Assembly (NCBI GenBank): GCA_017934745.1
Contig: JAGBIY010000027.1
Span: forward strand, 60,806 to 124,805
Source of the DNA: Treponema sp.
GTDB lineage: Bacteria; Spirochaetota; Spirochaetia; Treponematales; Treponemataceae
Direction of reading: 5' to 3'
DNA: 64,000 bases
A program made the translations under genes and the position numbers. The notes under the pieces were generated by a model. That model saw only the letters and a program-made list of their open reading frames with translations. It did no database searches and had not been told where the DNA came from. Every line of letters begins with the position of its first letter. The first letter of the stretch is position 1. This document shows, piece by piece, positions 27,786 through 32,859 of this stretch.

Positions 27786-29258
27786 CTAGCGCGCGCCTTC
27801 GTTCTTGATGAACTTGTCGGAGTTCTGCTCGTACCACCATTTCGTGTACGGGAGCTTTATCCTCGCGGCGAGGTTCTTCTCGAAAGAGCGGTTCGTCACC
27901 GTGTCGCGGATAAGCTTGGCGAACGAGAGCGTCCCCTCGTAGCCGAACACCGTGTACTCGTCCGCCACGAACACGGCGGCGTAGCCCTGCTTTATCGCCC
28001 ACACCGTCGTTCCCGGATGACGGCTGAAATAGACGTCCGGCTTGTAGCGGTTGAGGATGTTCAGGACCTCGTAGTTCTGCTGGTCGGCCACGGCCACCTT
28101 CATGTCCTTCGGGGAGGTGTTCAGGAGATGTTCGAGCGCAGGTGGGACTTTTCCGTTGTCGTACTTGTAGTCGTAGTGCCATGCGAGCGCGTAGTCCACC
28201 TTCATGCCGAATTCCTGGAGTACGCGCGCTATCTCGTATGTGAAGCCCGGACCCATTCCGATGACCGCCCTGAGACCGTGGAGCGACTTCGTGACTTCCT
28301 CGATCTGCGGAAGGTAGATTTCACGCTGCTTTTTGATGTACTCCTCCGCCTGCTCCCTTCTTCCGATGGCGTCTCCGATTCCCCTGAGCCATGTCTCGAA
28401 CCCGGTCACGCCCGAATGGTTTATCGTGCGGACGTATGGGACTCCGTATGTCTCCTCAAGGGCGTTTCCGAGGTACGTTCCGAGCGTTCCGCAGATGCAG
28501 ACCGTGGCCAGAGCCTCGCTCAAGTGCGAAAGCTCCTCTATCGTCGAGTTGCAGTAGAGGAACTGCGGCTCCGCGTCGAAGACCTCGTTGAAAATCTTCG
28601 TGATTTGCGGGCGCGCGCTCTCGTAGAAGTTCTTTATGTTGATGATTCTCCTCTTCTCTTTCGGTGGCTTGACGATTCCCTGGAGGACCGCGTGGTCGGA
28701 GATGTCGAATCCCGAAGCCCAGATGCGGCTCTTGAATCCTTCGCAGTGGACGGGAATCACGGGAATCGGCAGTTCCTCGTTGATTTCGTCGGCCAATCCG
28801 TCCACGTCCTCTCCGATGACTCCCGACACGCACGACGTGGAGATGAAGATTGCGTCAGGCTTGTAAGTCTCGTATGTGTGCTCGACTATTTTCCTGAGGT
28901 CGTTCATCGCCCCGAAAACAGTGTCCTTCTCGTTCAAATCCGTGCAGACGAAGACGGAATTCGTGGTCTTGTTGATTCTCGCGGCTATCTGGCCGAATTT
29001 CACGCTGTCGTTCGAGGCCATCGCCGTGCAGCCAGCGGGCGCGTGGTAGACGACAGCCACGTTCCTTATCGCCGCGAGGGCGTTCAGCGCGCATCCTGAG
29101 AGGCAGGAGCTCGACTGCGAGAAGCACCTTTCCCTGTTCTTGAGGGAGCCGCATTCCGAGCGGTAGACGAGCGTCTCCAAATCGCCCACGAATCCTGTTA
29201 TCGAGCCGAGGCGGTTTTCCCTCACCGCGAGGTTCGCGTTCTTGAAGTTGTATGGCAT
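27786..29258 (-). CDS. Nitrogenase-like component 1, NifD-like subunit (Mar-type candidate)
   Basis: A 490-residue homologue of NifD. By visual alignment to Azotobacter NifD, the three P-cluster cysteines are kept: Cys56 (C62), Cys77 in APAGCT (C88) and Cys143 in TSCVSGVIGEDV (C154). The cofactor cysteine is also kept: Cys256, 15 residues before YGVP (C275). The HCEGF motif (C183 region) assigns it to the D side. Yet the residues equivalent to Gln191, His195 and His442 are Trp180, Phe184 and about Val431, and Arg96 is Ser85. This argues against N2 fixation. The neighbouring sulfur genes suggest a methylthio-alkane reductase-like enzyme. AAGGAG precedes the start. Confidence 0.85.
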   Translation of the reverse strand: MPYNFKNANLAVRENRLGSITGFVGDLETLVYRSECGSLKNRERCFSQSSSCLSGCALNALAAIRNVAVVYHAPAGCTAMASNDSVKFGQIAARINKTTNSVFVCTDLNEKDTVFGAMNDLRKIVEHTYETYKPDAIFISTSCVSGVIGEDVDGLADEINEELPIPVIPVHCEGFKSRIWASGFDISDHAVLQGIVKPPKEKRRIINIKNFYESARPQITKIFNEVFDAEPQFLYCNSTIEELSHLSEALATVCICGTLGTYLGNALEETYGVPYVRTINHSGVTGFETWLRGIGDAIGRREQAEEYIKKQREIYLPQIEEVTKSLHGLRAVIGMGPGFTYEIARVLQEFGMKVDYALAWHYDYKYDNGKVPPALEHLLNTSPKDMKVAVADQQNYEVLNILNRYKPDVYFSRHPGTTVWAIKQGYAAVFVADEYTVFGYEGTLSFAKLIRDTVTNRSFEKNLAARIKLPYTKWWYEQNSDKFIKNEGAR

Positions 29259-29288
29259 AAGATAATCTCCTTAGAAGAATTTGCGGAA

Positions 29289-30617
29289 TTACAGCTTGAG
29301 CTTGCTCAACGCCGCCGTGAAAATCTGTTCGAGCAGGTGGAGCCCTCCCGAATATCCTGCGATGTGGTCGTTGATGACGAGCTTCTCAAGCATCGGGTAG
29401 CTCACGTTCACATAGTGCGCCCCGATTTCCTGCGCGAGCTTCTTCTCCCAGTTCGAGCCGATGATGAGCGGAGTGCCTGCGAAGTCGGTCTTCCTAATCT
29501 GCTCCTGGATGTCGTGTCCGTCCGTCGTGAACTGCACCTGCGCCTGGATTCCGTAGTTCAGGTTCGAGGCTTCGTTCGCTATCTGCGTGCGGAACGCTTC
29601 CGGCGCGTCGTCCGTGATGAAGAGCTTTTCAGGGAAGAGACCCATGTCGTTCACGAGGAATTTCGTCACCGCCACCGTGTACTGGCTGTCGCTCACGACC
29701 GTGAACCTTTTTCCGAGGATTCTCGTCTCCAAAAGGGTGTCGGCGAAACGTTCAATATAATAGTAGAATTCCGCTTCCTTCTCCGTTATGACTTTTTCAA
29801 CCAGCTCTTTGTCCGCGCCTGTGAATTCCTGCACAGCCCTCAAGAACTTCGTGGTCTCCGTGGCTCCGATTGGAAGAATCGGGTAGTGGAGGAGCGGAAT
29901 CTTGAACTTTGTCTCAAGGTACTTCGCGCTTTCGAGTCCGACCCAAGGCGAGACGAGGATGGAGAATTCTGCCCTCGCCGCGTCCTTGATGTTCTCTATT
30001 CCGCGTCCGAACCCGAATACCGTGTTCGGCTTTAGCCCTATCGCGCTGATGAGCGACTCAAGCTCCCGCAGGTTTCCGAGCCAGTACGGATCCTGCTGCG
30101 GAGGTCCCGCGAAGATGTTCACAAGCCCCTTGACCGTTTTGCCTTTCTCGTCCCTTTCGTCCCTCACTTCCGGGCGGTTGAGGAGCTGCTCGAAAATCGA
30201 CTTCAGAATCCAGTCGTGGCCGACGTAGTTGTTCCCCTTGAATCCCGGAGTCTTCGCCCAGATTACAGGCTTCTCCTCGTCCTCGAATTCCTGCGCCACT
30301 TCCTTGATGTCGTCTCCGATGATTTCTCCCGTGCATCCCGAAAGGACGACAAACAAGTCCGCGTCGATGACCCTGAGCGCGTTGTGGATTGTGGAGCGGA
30401 GCTTCTCCGCGCCTCCGAAGACGACCTCCTTCTCTGAGATTGAAGTGCATGGGAAGATGTTCGGGCTGTATCGTCCGCTCGTTCCGTTGTTGTCGTTCAG
30501 TTTCGACGCGCAGCCTGGTCCCGAATGGAGGACTGGAATCGCCCCCGGTATCGACTGGACTGTCTGCATGGCCGCCAATGCGCACTTGTATCGCGGCTGG
30601 TCCAATATTTTAGCCAT
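29289..30617 (-). CDS. Nitrogenase-like component 1, NifK-like subunit (Mar-type candidate)
   Basis: A 442-residue NifK-like protein. P-cluster cysteines are Cys12 (NifK C70), Cys36 in HSGPGCASK (C95) and Cys95 in LSGCTGEIIGDDI (C153). KTPGFKGNNYVGHDW corresponds to the TPSFVGSHVTGWDN region of NifK and fixes it as the K side. It lacks the long N-terminal extension of true NifK, as in other nitrogenase-like enzymes. Gene order here is K before D, the reverse of nif and of the described marBHDK order. It should form a D2K2-type complex with the product of 27786 and receive electrons from the NifH-like protein. Confidence 0.85.
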   Translation of the reverse strand: MAKILDQPRYKCALAAMQTVQSIPGAIPVLHSGPGCASKLNDNNGTSGRYSPNIFPCTSISEKEVVFGGAEKLRSTIHNALRVIDADLFVVLSGCTGEIIGDDIKEVAQEFEDEEKPVIWAKTPGFKGNNYVGHDWILKSIFEQLLNRPEVRDERDEKGKTVKGLVNIFAGPPQQDPYWLGNLRELESLISAIGLKPNTVFGFGRGIENIKDAARAEFSILVSPWVGLESAKYLETKFKIPLLHYPILPIGATETTKFLRAVQEFTGADKELVEKVITEKEAEFYYYIERFADTLLETRILGKRFTVVSDSQYTVAVTKFLVNDMGLFPEKLFITDDAPEAFRTQIANEASNLNYGIQAQVQFTTDGHDIQEQIRKTDFAGTPLIIGSNWEKKLAQEIGAHYVNVSYPMLEKLVINDHIAGYSGGLHLLEQIFTAALSKLKL

Positions 30618-31921: not shown

Positions 31922-31974
31922 GTTTTTTCTCCTGTTTTTTTTCTGTTTTGTCGTTGCTGTTTATGTTTTCCCCA

Positions 31975-32859
31975 TCAACCGTGGGAGAAATTCTCTTTGA
32001 AGTCCAGGTTCCTTCTTGCGAAGAGCGAGTAGACCTGCCTTGAGACCTCCGTCTTTCCCGGCACTCCTATCGCGTCCGCCCGGCACCTGCTGCAGTGGAG
32101 GAACAGCTCTATGTACTGTCTCGCCGCCACGTGCGCCGCCTCGATTTCGAAGCAGTCGGGGGCCTTCTCGTCCTTGAGCTTCGCCTGCGGAATCAGGGGG
32201 ATTATGTTGTACTTCTCCGCGCCCGCCTCGGCGACCTTGTAGGCTATCTGCTCTATGTGGTCTCCGTTTATCCTTGGGACGAGAACCGTGTTCACCTTCA
32301 CCGTGATTCCGGCCTCCGCGATTTTTTTGATTCCTTCGAGCTGGTTCCTTATGAGGATTTTCGCCCCTTCCACGCCCTCGATTTTCTTTCCGTGGTAGAT
32401 GATGTAGTCGTTGAGCTGCGCCTCGATTTCCGGGTCGACTGCGTTCACCGTCACGGTGAGGCTGTCCAGGCCAAGCTCGATGAGCTCGTCCGCGCGCTCT
32501 GAAAGAAGGAGTCCGTTCGTGCTCATGCACTTTATGAGGTCCGGGAATTCCCTCTTTATGATTCTGAACGTCTCTATCGCGTAGTCCGTGGCGAGTGTGT
32601 CCCCCGGACCCGCGATTCCAGCGACCGTTATCTCCGGGGCGATTTCGCGCGCCTTTTTGATGAGCGGCACAGTCTCCTCCGGCTTCAGGACGCAGGAGGC
32701 CACGCCGGGCCTGTTCTCCGTGTCGTTTATCGACCTCTCGCAGAACCTGCATGCGATGTTGCAGCCTGGGCATACCGGGAGGTGGATTCTTCCCGTGCTC
32801 GCGGAGTGTCTTCCGAAGCATGGGTGTTTGTCTGTCAGCTCTTCAAAACTAATTGGCAT
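31975..32859 (-). CDS. NifB-like radical SAM cofactor synthase
   Basis: A 294-residue radical SAM enzyme with the cluster motif CNIACRFC (Cys33, Cys37, Cys40). NifB hallmarks are HPCF...H at residues 12-18, LPVCPGCN, CERSINDTENRPGVASCVLKPEE, VAGIAGPGDTLA and CRADAIGVPG. It lacks the C-terminal NifX domain, as in short NifB proteins. NifB makes the 8-iron carbide core of nitrogenase cofactors. No nifE or nifN gene is in the window, so the final cofactor may be the unmodified NifB product. It is the first gene of the nitrogenase-like set. Confidence 0.92.
   Translation of the reverse strand: MPISFEELTDKHPCFGRHSASTGRIHLPVCPGCNIACRFCERSINDTENRPGVASCVLKPEETVPLIKKAREIAPEITVAGIAGPGDTLATDYAIETFRIIKREFPDLIKCMSTNGLLLSERADELIELGLDSLTVTVNAVDPEIEAQLNDYIIYHGKKIEGVEGAKILIRNQLEGIKKIAEAGITVKVNTVLVPRINGDHIEQIAYKVAEAGAEKYNIIPLIPQAKLKDEKAPDCFEIEAAHVAARQYIELFLHCSRCRADAIGVPGKTEVSRQVYSLFARRNLDFKENFSHG

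Follow-up and report, generated by a model that had tools for sequence, protein, structure and literature searches.

What does a nitrogenase-like gene set do when its neighbours are genes of sulfur metabolism? The question is raised by a 64,000-nucleotide stretch, here called the window, of contig C29 (JAGBIY010000027.1) of a Treponema sp. genome (3.58 Mb, 95.9% complete), in which 16 co-directional genes run on the minus strand from position 34263 down to 17581. In this order they encode an O-acetylhomoserine (OAH) sulfhydrylase (OAHS), NifB-like, NifH and NifX-like proteins, the component 1 subunits K and D, a permease, a solute-binding lipoprotein, a DUF4418 protein, an FtsX-like permease, an ATP-binding cassette (ABC) ATPase, a CysK-like enzyme, a second ABC ATPase, a LanC-like protein, a second CysK-like enzyme and a cystathionine gamma-synthase/lyase-type enzyme. 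An initial annotation had placed the five nitrogenase-like genes in one unit and read them as a candidate system resembling methylthio-alkane reductase (Mar); all five were found intact and in place on the minus strand. We consider it probable that they specify an organosulfur reductase that is driven by ATP and belongs to the Mar superclade, with a shared NifH and NifB, whose thiol or sulfide product would be fixed by pyridoxal phosphate (PLP) enzymes within one sulfur regulon.

The nearest characterised relative of the window pair is Mar and not nitrogenase, as judged by bit scores against Protein Data Bank (PDB) entries, by fold and by trees. D and K matched PF00148 at 226 and 252 bits, and their identity to Rhodospirillum rubrum MarD and MarK amounts to 34% and 40%, respectively. 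In quick trees, D formed a sister clade to the MarD orthologues, a joint clade of MarD and window sequences gave p 0.003 in the approximately unbiased (AU) test, and the K tree agreed with this placement. As the initial annotation anticipated, the pair fell outside NifDK and outside one BchN and one BchB row, both long branches; CfbD was not among the tree rows, and its NCBIfam model scored 46 bits (D) and 44 bits (K) against a cut-off of 268. Clostridium aminobutyricum and C. acidisoli each carry both a MarD-orthologue and a window-type pair.

Residues of D and K were assigned by alignment to MarD and MarK. The MarD report (PMC12552129) gives Cys66, Cys91 and Cys158 (P-cluster), Cys270 and His429 as ligands, presents Arg428 with His429 as a possible MarD hallmark, and names Cys73, Gln74 and His194 at the active site. 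Six P-cluster cysteines had been listed for the window. K Cys12, Cys36 and Cys95 and D Cys77 and Cys143 were upheld, but D Cys56 was not: the true first one is Cys52, which aligns with MarD Cys66 and is invariant in the 51 rows of the component 1 alignment, and Cys56 is not listed among its invariant or nearly invariant columns. The proposed cofactor cysteine, D Cys256, is at the correct aligned position, and NifH Cys98 and Cys133 both lie in the expected motifs. Cys256 and the Loop I Arg-His pair (R413-H414) are kept in 130/130 window-type rows (89 distinct), all of which also have the remaining MarD ligands as well as Trp195, Phe199 and His375. The Arg-His pair is missing from 28 D3-type, 7 NifD and 7 NifE rows. 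MarD Cys73, Gln74, His194, Phe374 and His376, constant in 5/5 MarD rows, are mostly replaced in the 130 window-type rows, by N/G/D/S, A/Q, I, W and Y, respectively, with Gln74 retained in 52. In the window D, N59, A60, I179 and Y362 stand at MarD Cys73, Gln74, His194 and His376, none of them the MarD residue. Because the metal ligands are kept and the pocket positions replaced, the metal site of the window-type enzymes looks Mar-like, judged from the alignment, and the substrate pocket does not.

These data bear directly on whether the locus encodes a plain methylthio-alkane reductase, which would act on 2-methylthioethanol, dimethyl sulfide or ethyl methyl sulfide and pass methanethiol to methionine via the OAH sulfhydrylase. 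The Arg-His hallmark, the complete set of ligands, the MarB- and MarH-like partners and the adjoining OAH sulfhydrylase would all fit such an enzyme. Against it stand the separate clade, the replaced pocket and the two clostridia that carry both types. Moreover, MtnA is required for the shunt from methylthioadenosine (MTA) to methylthioethanol, and no MtnA/IF-2B gene was found in the 95.9% complete genome, leaving no route from the cell's own MTA to methylthioethanol. We regard a plain Mar as unlikely. The Mar-like designation thus survives with regard to nearest relative, Arg-His pair and sulfur context, but an identity of the locus with Mar itself is not supported.

Eight PF00148 genes, making up four pairs, were found in the genome; one pair lies in the window and the other three on contig C37, which stops at its third such pair. 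Transporter genes lie beside three of the four pairs; two C37 pairs adjoin SsuB/SsuC-like or ABC genes, candidate binding proteins and a CysK-like gene. The C37 proteins labelled SsuA1-SsuA4 take this label from their position beside SsuB/SsuC-like genes, and the two that were checked had no Pfam or NCBIfam match. Own-genome searches yielded one full-length NifH and one NifB. A NifEN-type pair was not found in this 95.9% complete genome, none of the four pairs being above the NifE/N cut-off or within the NifE/N clade. NifB proteins are marked by the radical S-adenosylmethionine (SAM) motif C-x3-C-x2-C, HPC and C-x2-C-R-A-D-A. These motifs occur in 54/54 homologues and E-x-RPG in 48/54; because the NifX-like part is missing, the window protein scores under the TIGR01290 cut-off (250 vs 344 bits). 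Among 17 further genomes of the genus, chosen because the system is present, 16 had one NifH over the cut-off, while their strong pairs numbered from one to three or more. G090, the remaining genome, had two: one accompanies a NifHDKEN set, the other the Mar-like pairs. G066, G090, G123 and G190 additionally contain weaker pairs or genes accompanied by a divergent NifH of their own that scores under the cut-off. On plasmid pTS2 of Treponema saccharophilum, the order is OAHS, cysK, radical SAM, NifX-like, nifH and LysR, and farther along NifX-like, K, D, ABC transporter, D, K and NifX-like. Since one NifH with several DK pairs was noted before in Heliophilum fasciatum, in the available part of PMC9147875, the arrangement itself is not new. 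There, as here, one NifH-like gene accompanies several DK-like (NflDK) pairs, one of them MarDK; they were interpreted as partly N2-fixing, and the operator, CysK-like partner and transporter modules go unmentioned in that part of the report (PMC9147875).

A repeat search revealed two similar leaders in the window, one ahead of the OAHS operon and the other ahead of the genes for the LanC-like protein, the second CysK-like enzyme (CysK2) and the cystathionine gamma-synthase (CGS)-type enzyme. Each contains two copies of the palindrome CCTA-N9-TAGG 46-49 bp apart, one over TTGAC, followed by a short open reading frame (ORF). The window has exactly four such sites vs 0.14 expected, and 0/100 shuffles reached four; promoter-like sites near the OAHS leader numbered 2 vs 1.0 expected. 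The pattern was defined from the window and then counted elsewhere. In 503 kb representing 32 nitrogenase-like loci of 17 other genomes we found 105 sites (103 distinct) where 2.2 were expected, although these are not independent draws because the genomes are relatives; a count of 209 sites with duplicated places (193 distinct) was set aside. Other stretches of the window genome contained 2 sites in 665 kb vs 3.2 expected, in a background of 40 stretches (664,732 bases) that is not random: several were picked at earlier search matches (e.g. C13 and C46, with CysK), three are on the window contig, and C37:1-18000 overlaps the second nitrogenase-like locus.

Counting the 32 loci, the window and C37 together, 105 of 110 sites fall outside called ORFs; their commonest spacing is 40-41 bp and their consensus is CCTAnTnAnTnAnTAGG. 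The palindrome precedes NifH, NifB, D/K, transporter, CysK-like and OAH-sulfhydrylase operons. A site heads 36/52 runs with H, B, K or D, 13/14 runs with NifH and 15/28 other runs holding a gene of the set, compared to 2/272 runs in the background (in the site-position and operon-head counts, 7 kb are common to loci L009 and L011). Of the two sites in the background, one stands ahead of a LysR gene and the other ahead of a gene for a family-3 solute-binding protein, which is accompanied by two permeases and by an ATPase closest to TcyN. Two Fibrobacter loci had 9 sites counted, 6 distinct, and none in shuffles. A sulfur role is independently supported by this operator, which is common to the locus and to sulfur genes. 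The LysR box is T-N11-A, and a LysR-type regulator perhaps binds the operator; candidates are the LysR proteins encoded at L268 3246-4166 in this genome and next to nifH on pTS2. In C. acidisoli, a SAM riboswitch heads an operon of cystine-like transporter, M20, D3-K3, window-type D-K and NifB genes, and another heads a further nitrogenase-like D gene with its ATG 77 nt downstream.

The sulfur neighbours named in the initial annotation are present: the OAH sulfhydrylase, two CysK homologues (sub-cut-off) and SsuA-, SsuB- and SsuC-like genes (none reaching its NCBIfam cut-off). Its remark that nitrogen genes are lacking nearby holds for the 16 co-directional genes, none of which was recognised as such, the scans having covered this part of the window only. 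For relatives, partner genes of the CysK, OAHS/CGS and SsuA/C types were counted within 6 kb, after 90% dereplication and a flank filter that kept 68/76 rows; the SsuA/C label includes the position-named C37 proteins, and one locus often holds both NifD and NifE rows. Sulfur genes were found for 14/22 window-type, 3/3 basal window-clade, 10/10 D1/D2-type, 4/4 other MarD-clade, 1/2 MarD-orthologue, 6/14 D3-type and 0/11 NifD/NifE rows. In the Mar-to-OAH-sulfhydrylase route, methanethiol is converted to methionine. Near window-type D, a CysK homologue (12/22 loci) is commoner than an OAHS/CGS homologue (2/22), and the CysK found there is of a non-canonical kind. In a tree of CysK homologues, one branch with a Shimodaira-Hasegawa-like approximate likelihood ratio test (SH-aLRT) value of 99 splits 9 canonical Q-F rows from 21 rows without Q-F, which include the three copies of this genome located in nitrogenase-like loci. 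The canonical CysK of the genome lies elsewhere and scores 430 bits, whereas the window copies, at 280 and 274 bits, stay below the cut-off of 344; a C46 homologue (337 bits, just under the cut-off) was outside the tree. The tree is better evidence than the counts, in which Q-F was present in 1/68 homologues near window-type D vs 28/42 elsewhere in the loci, inflated by near-copies, and in 1/11 vs 7/15 after 80% dereplication.

Sulfite reductase was likewise not found in the 95.9% complete genome. Together with the missing IF-2B/MtnA, this indicates that the cell probably needs scavenged organic or reduced sulfur, and makes methylthioethanol from its own MTA an unlikely substrate. The missing sulfite reductase would also suit a nitrogenase-like reductase that frees sulfur from a sulfonate, sulfoxide or thiol and supplies sulfide to CysK, instead of cleaving thioethers, as would the Ssu/Tau/Sao-type transporter genes, the CysK-like partner and the clostridial order cysK-tRNA-Cys-nifB-nifX-nifH-cysK'-D-K. 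A tRNA-Cys gene was found in 7/17 scanned loci, all clostridial (L082, L087, L088, L091, L095, L096 and L101); in L082, L087, L088 and L101 it lies between cysK and nifB and ends ~45-105 nt before nifB. However, the sole characterised relative cleaves thioethers, the transporter family leaves the substrate unfixed, and the linked CysK is non-canonical with a canonical one elsewhere in the genome. We judge such a sulfonate or thiol reductase improbable.

Several results weigh against an organosulfur reductase under one sulfur regulon. At eight of the 22 window-type loci left after dereplication, no listed sulfur gene lies within 6 kb, and such genes stand at only one of two true MarD-orthologue loci. 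Within the family, absence of sulfite reductase was not significantly related to these genes (2/85 vs 15/190 genomes, p 0.10, the 85 being those with a best E below 1e-100), and it is used here for the window genome only. Among the runs of the nitrogenase-like loci in which no gene of the set was recognised, 33/85 are headed by a site too, some perhaps because a divergent promoter region is used in common. Of the three sites on C37, one is exact and two have 2 mismatches to the longer consensus, one of the latter lying directly before the SsuB2-to-K1 run. Clostridial loci gave no clear operator excess (7 counted, 6 distinct, 2.4 expected). An Rfam scan of the window returned no element at gathering score, and S-boxes were present in only 2/33 distinct loci of relatives. 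No site was present in a total of 79 kb made up of two true nif loci (L149 and L163) and four loci with other PF00148 genes, nor in the two nif loci when 2 mismatches were allowed, but for the nif loci this is a small test of two loci and 32 kb with ~7 sites expected at the density of the other loci.

The lack of the operator at true nif loci also bears on the view that the system is a group IV nitrogenase fixing N2, as claimed for Endomicrobium proavitum. PMC11257099 calls the Endomicrobium group IV homologues a functional nitrogenase, and H. fasciatum, with its group IV enzymes, one NifH and several DK pairs, is reported as an N2 fixer (PMC9147875). A nitrogenase-type ligand is present in the genome as well: the D3 pair has the His442-type motif, found by a strict pattern in 20/28 D3-type rows, and in 7 of the remaining 8 the His is visible by sequence, the eighth being cut off. 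In contrast, this cofactor-ligand motif is present in 0/130 window-type rows, the window D included, vs 6/7 NifD rows, and in G090 this system coexists with a NifHDKEN set that has a separate NifH. With Mo-nitrogenase NifDK and the maturase NifEN the window system has the superfamily, NifH and NifB in common; unlike them, it has no His442-type ligand and no NifEN pair that could be found, and it has its own clade and a sulfur operator. N2 fixation by this system is very unlikely. We give almost no credence to a role of the window pair as a NifEN-like cofactor scaffold for the other pairs of the genome. Several pairs beside a single NifB could suggest it, but the pair has six P-cluster cysteines and the Arg-His ligand, and in G049, G278 (Lachnospiraceae bacterium 3-1) and G279 (Ruminococcus sp.) the window-type pair is the only PF00148 pair found.

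In the organosulfur reductase that we favour, the NifB-like and NifX-like proteins would build and deliver an Fe8S9C-type cluster, held in D by Cys256 and His414 with Arg413 alongside. Electrons would pass from NifH through the P-cluster, for which all six cysteines are present, to the D cluster, which might then reductively cleave a C-S bond of a small sulfur compound imported by the adjacent ABC transporter. The OAH sulfhydrylase, the cystathionine-type enzyme and a dedicated non-canonical CysK-like enzyme would then fix the thiol or sulfide released. One NifH and one NifB may serve all four pairs, as one power unit with several catalytic heads, and the palindromic operator would join the set in one sulfur regulon, perhaps via a LysR-type regulator. 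Our confidence is evenly balanced on the wider proposal of modular nitrogenase-like organosulfur reductases in gut spirochaetes, Fibrobacter and Clostridia, with a substrate unlike that of Mar, one Fe protein and NifB for up to four pairs matched to transporters and a non-canonical CysK-like enzyme, and, in Treponema, a CCTA-N9-TAGG regulon, perhaps under LysR control, with a conserved leader peptide.

Compared to Mar of R. rubrum (MarBHDK; PDB 9fmg and 9d9u; PMC12552129), the window pair is a sister clade and not an orthologue, with the pocket replaced at positions 73, 74, 194, 374 and 376. Unlike MarBHDK, the locus has its own ABC transporter and a CysK-like partner, and its NifH is apparently common to three other pairs. 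DPOR BchNB and CfbD have the superfamily fold in common with the window pair, which has all six P-cluster cysteines and the cofactor cysteine (CfbD was not aligned); in BchNB the set of P-cluster cysteines is incomplete. The CymR/YtlI-type regulon of Bacillus subtilis places a cystine transporter, an amidohydrolase and sulfur enzymes under one control; the idea is alike, and the window operons include nitrogenase-like reductases. Group IV-A MarHDK-like genes were reported near another sulfur/methyl gene cluster (PMC10418091). Among the papers listed from the open-licence PubMed Central literature on methylthio-alkane reductase, group IV nitrogenase, spirochaete or sulfur nitrogenase-like proteins and Treponema leader peptides or LysR, no title or abstract opening described the system. 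New here would be the separate family and its regulatory and partner context, as read from the genes; Mar-type chemistry is already known. If the proposal is correct, Fe-S-carbide cluster chemistry is a common sulfur-scavenging tool of rumen and gut anaerobes, small hydrocarbons could be released from organic sulfur compounds, and NifH surveys of the gut would miscount sulfur enzymes as nitrogen fixers. Sulfur and nitrogen enzymes could be distinguished by simple sequence tests on the operator, the CysK-like partner and the Arg-His vs His442 ligand. Since T. saccharophilum, T. ruminis, C. acidisoli and C. aminobutyricum carry the system, the claim is directly testable.

Features of the sulfur-associated locus in the window (cut-offs are those of the respective models; aa, amino acids)
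Feature	Position	Strand	Remarks
D, component 1 alpha-like subunit, 490 aa	27786..29258	-	Mar superclade; C52/C77/C143 P-cluster, C256 cofactor Cys, R413-H414 = MarD R428-H429
K, component 1 beta-like subunit, 442 aa	29289..30617	-	C12/C36/C95 P-cluster; MarK 345 bits, next best 91 bits
NifX/NifB-C-terminal-like cofactor-binding protein, 131 aa	30642..31037	-	PF02579 63 bits
NifH-like Fe protein, 283 aa	31070..31921	-	TIGR01287 nifH 457 bits, cut-off 394; C98, C133; sole full-length one found in genome
NifB-like radical SAM enzyme, 294 aa	31975..32859	-	NifB-type radical SAM 250 bits, cut-off 344; sole one found in genome
O-acetylhomoserine sulfhydrylase	32977..34263	-	TIGR01326 634 bits; start = ATG 34263 (scored form began four codons upstream)
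ABC permease, SaoP/TauC/SsuC-like	26799..27758	-	model scores below cut-offs
ABC solute-binding lipoprotein, NMT1/SsuA family, 369 aa	25651..26760	-	PF09084 64 bits; TIGR01728 93 bits, cut-off 163.5
DUF4418 membrane protein	25222..25614	-	PF14387 106 bits
FtsX-like permease	24026..25237	-	PF02687 52 bits
ABC ATPase adjoining FtsX-like permease, start uncertain	23373..24155	-	PF00005 112 bits
Non-canonical CysK-like PLP enzyme, Q-M replacing Q-F	22334..23326	-	below CysK cut-offs
ABC ATPase, SaoA/NtrCD/TauB-like	21544..22308	-	model scores below cut-offs
LanC-like protein, 476 aa from ATG 21235	19805..21235	-	PF05147 100 bits
Second non-canonical CysK-like enzyme, Q-C	18781..19767	-	below CysK cut-offs
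Cystathionine gamma-synthase/lyase-type PLP enzyme	17581..18735	-	family match
Operator CCTA-N9-TAGG	34502..34518		overlaps TTGACA of promoter-like site 34514-34486, minus strand
Operator CCTA-N9-TAGG, second of pair	34456..34472		pattern match
Conserved upstream ORF 1, 27 aa, ...YFEKLVRENFRNGRMRPCCLSDNR	34343..34426	-	AGGAGG; before OAH sulfhydrylase
Operator CCTA-N9-TAGG upstream of LanC-like/CysK2/CGS set	21504..21520		pattern match
Operator CCTA-N9-TAGG, second of pair	21455..21471		pattern match
Conserved upstream ORF 2, 24 aa, ...YFEKLVRENFRNGRMRRPSLF	21358..21432	-	downstream of operator pair

The short upstream ORFs have a strong ribosome site, a conserved peptide (M..YFEKLVRENFRNG.M...) and, in some copies, a Cys-rich end, and they stand before OAHS, CysK or LanC-like genes. 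Each likely encodes a leader peptide of the sulfur control system. Between ORF 1 and the OAH sulfhydrylase no terminator-like hairpin was found, and attenuation there would be a guess. Besides the two window copies, others lie at 5275 and 17734 of L022, 15152 of L024, 3276 of L046 and 9266 of L132. Of the transporter parts, the SaoA/NtrCD/TauB-like ATPase and the permease had SaoA and SaoP as best models (sub-cut-off), ahead of SsuB and SsuC. The LanC-like protein shares its control unit with CysK-like and cystathionine-type enzymes.

The D3/K3 pair of C37 (L011 18286-19761 and 16989-18254) has six P-cluster cysteines and a NifD-type His442 motif replacing the Mar Arg-His, and 7/14 D3-type relatives lie beside amino-acid-type ABC genes; the pair may belong to group IV-A, with NfaDK of Endomicrobium. 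An ABC ATPase at L011 13088-13852 starts SsuB2-like and, by sequence reading, ends TcyN/GlnQ-type, being either a natural chimera or an assembly error. D-K fusion proteins of ~920-990 aa had been suggested by open frames; the idea was dropped because ORF calling gave 0 fused ORFs among 410 domains. Three clostridial loci (L065 1498-4475, L221 6946-9964 and L217 5321-8296) contain divergent D/K-like genes outside the named clades with an adjoining canonical Q-F CysK. In four genomes (L146, L150, L154 and L173), weak PF00148 genes accompany a divergent NifH, 49-55% identical to the window NifH, without the operator. G090, with a NifHDKEN-B set (L149) and a Mar-like set with another NifH (L148), provides a natural side-by-side comparison. 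In T. saccharophilum, the system (L132, NZ_AP025290.1) is carried on a 382-kb circular plasmid, near an IS30 transposase and a type I-C CRISPR set.

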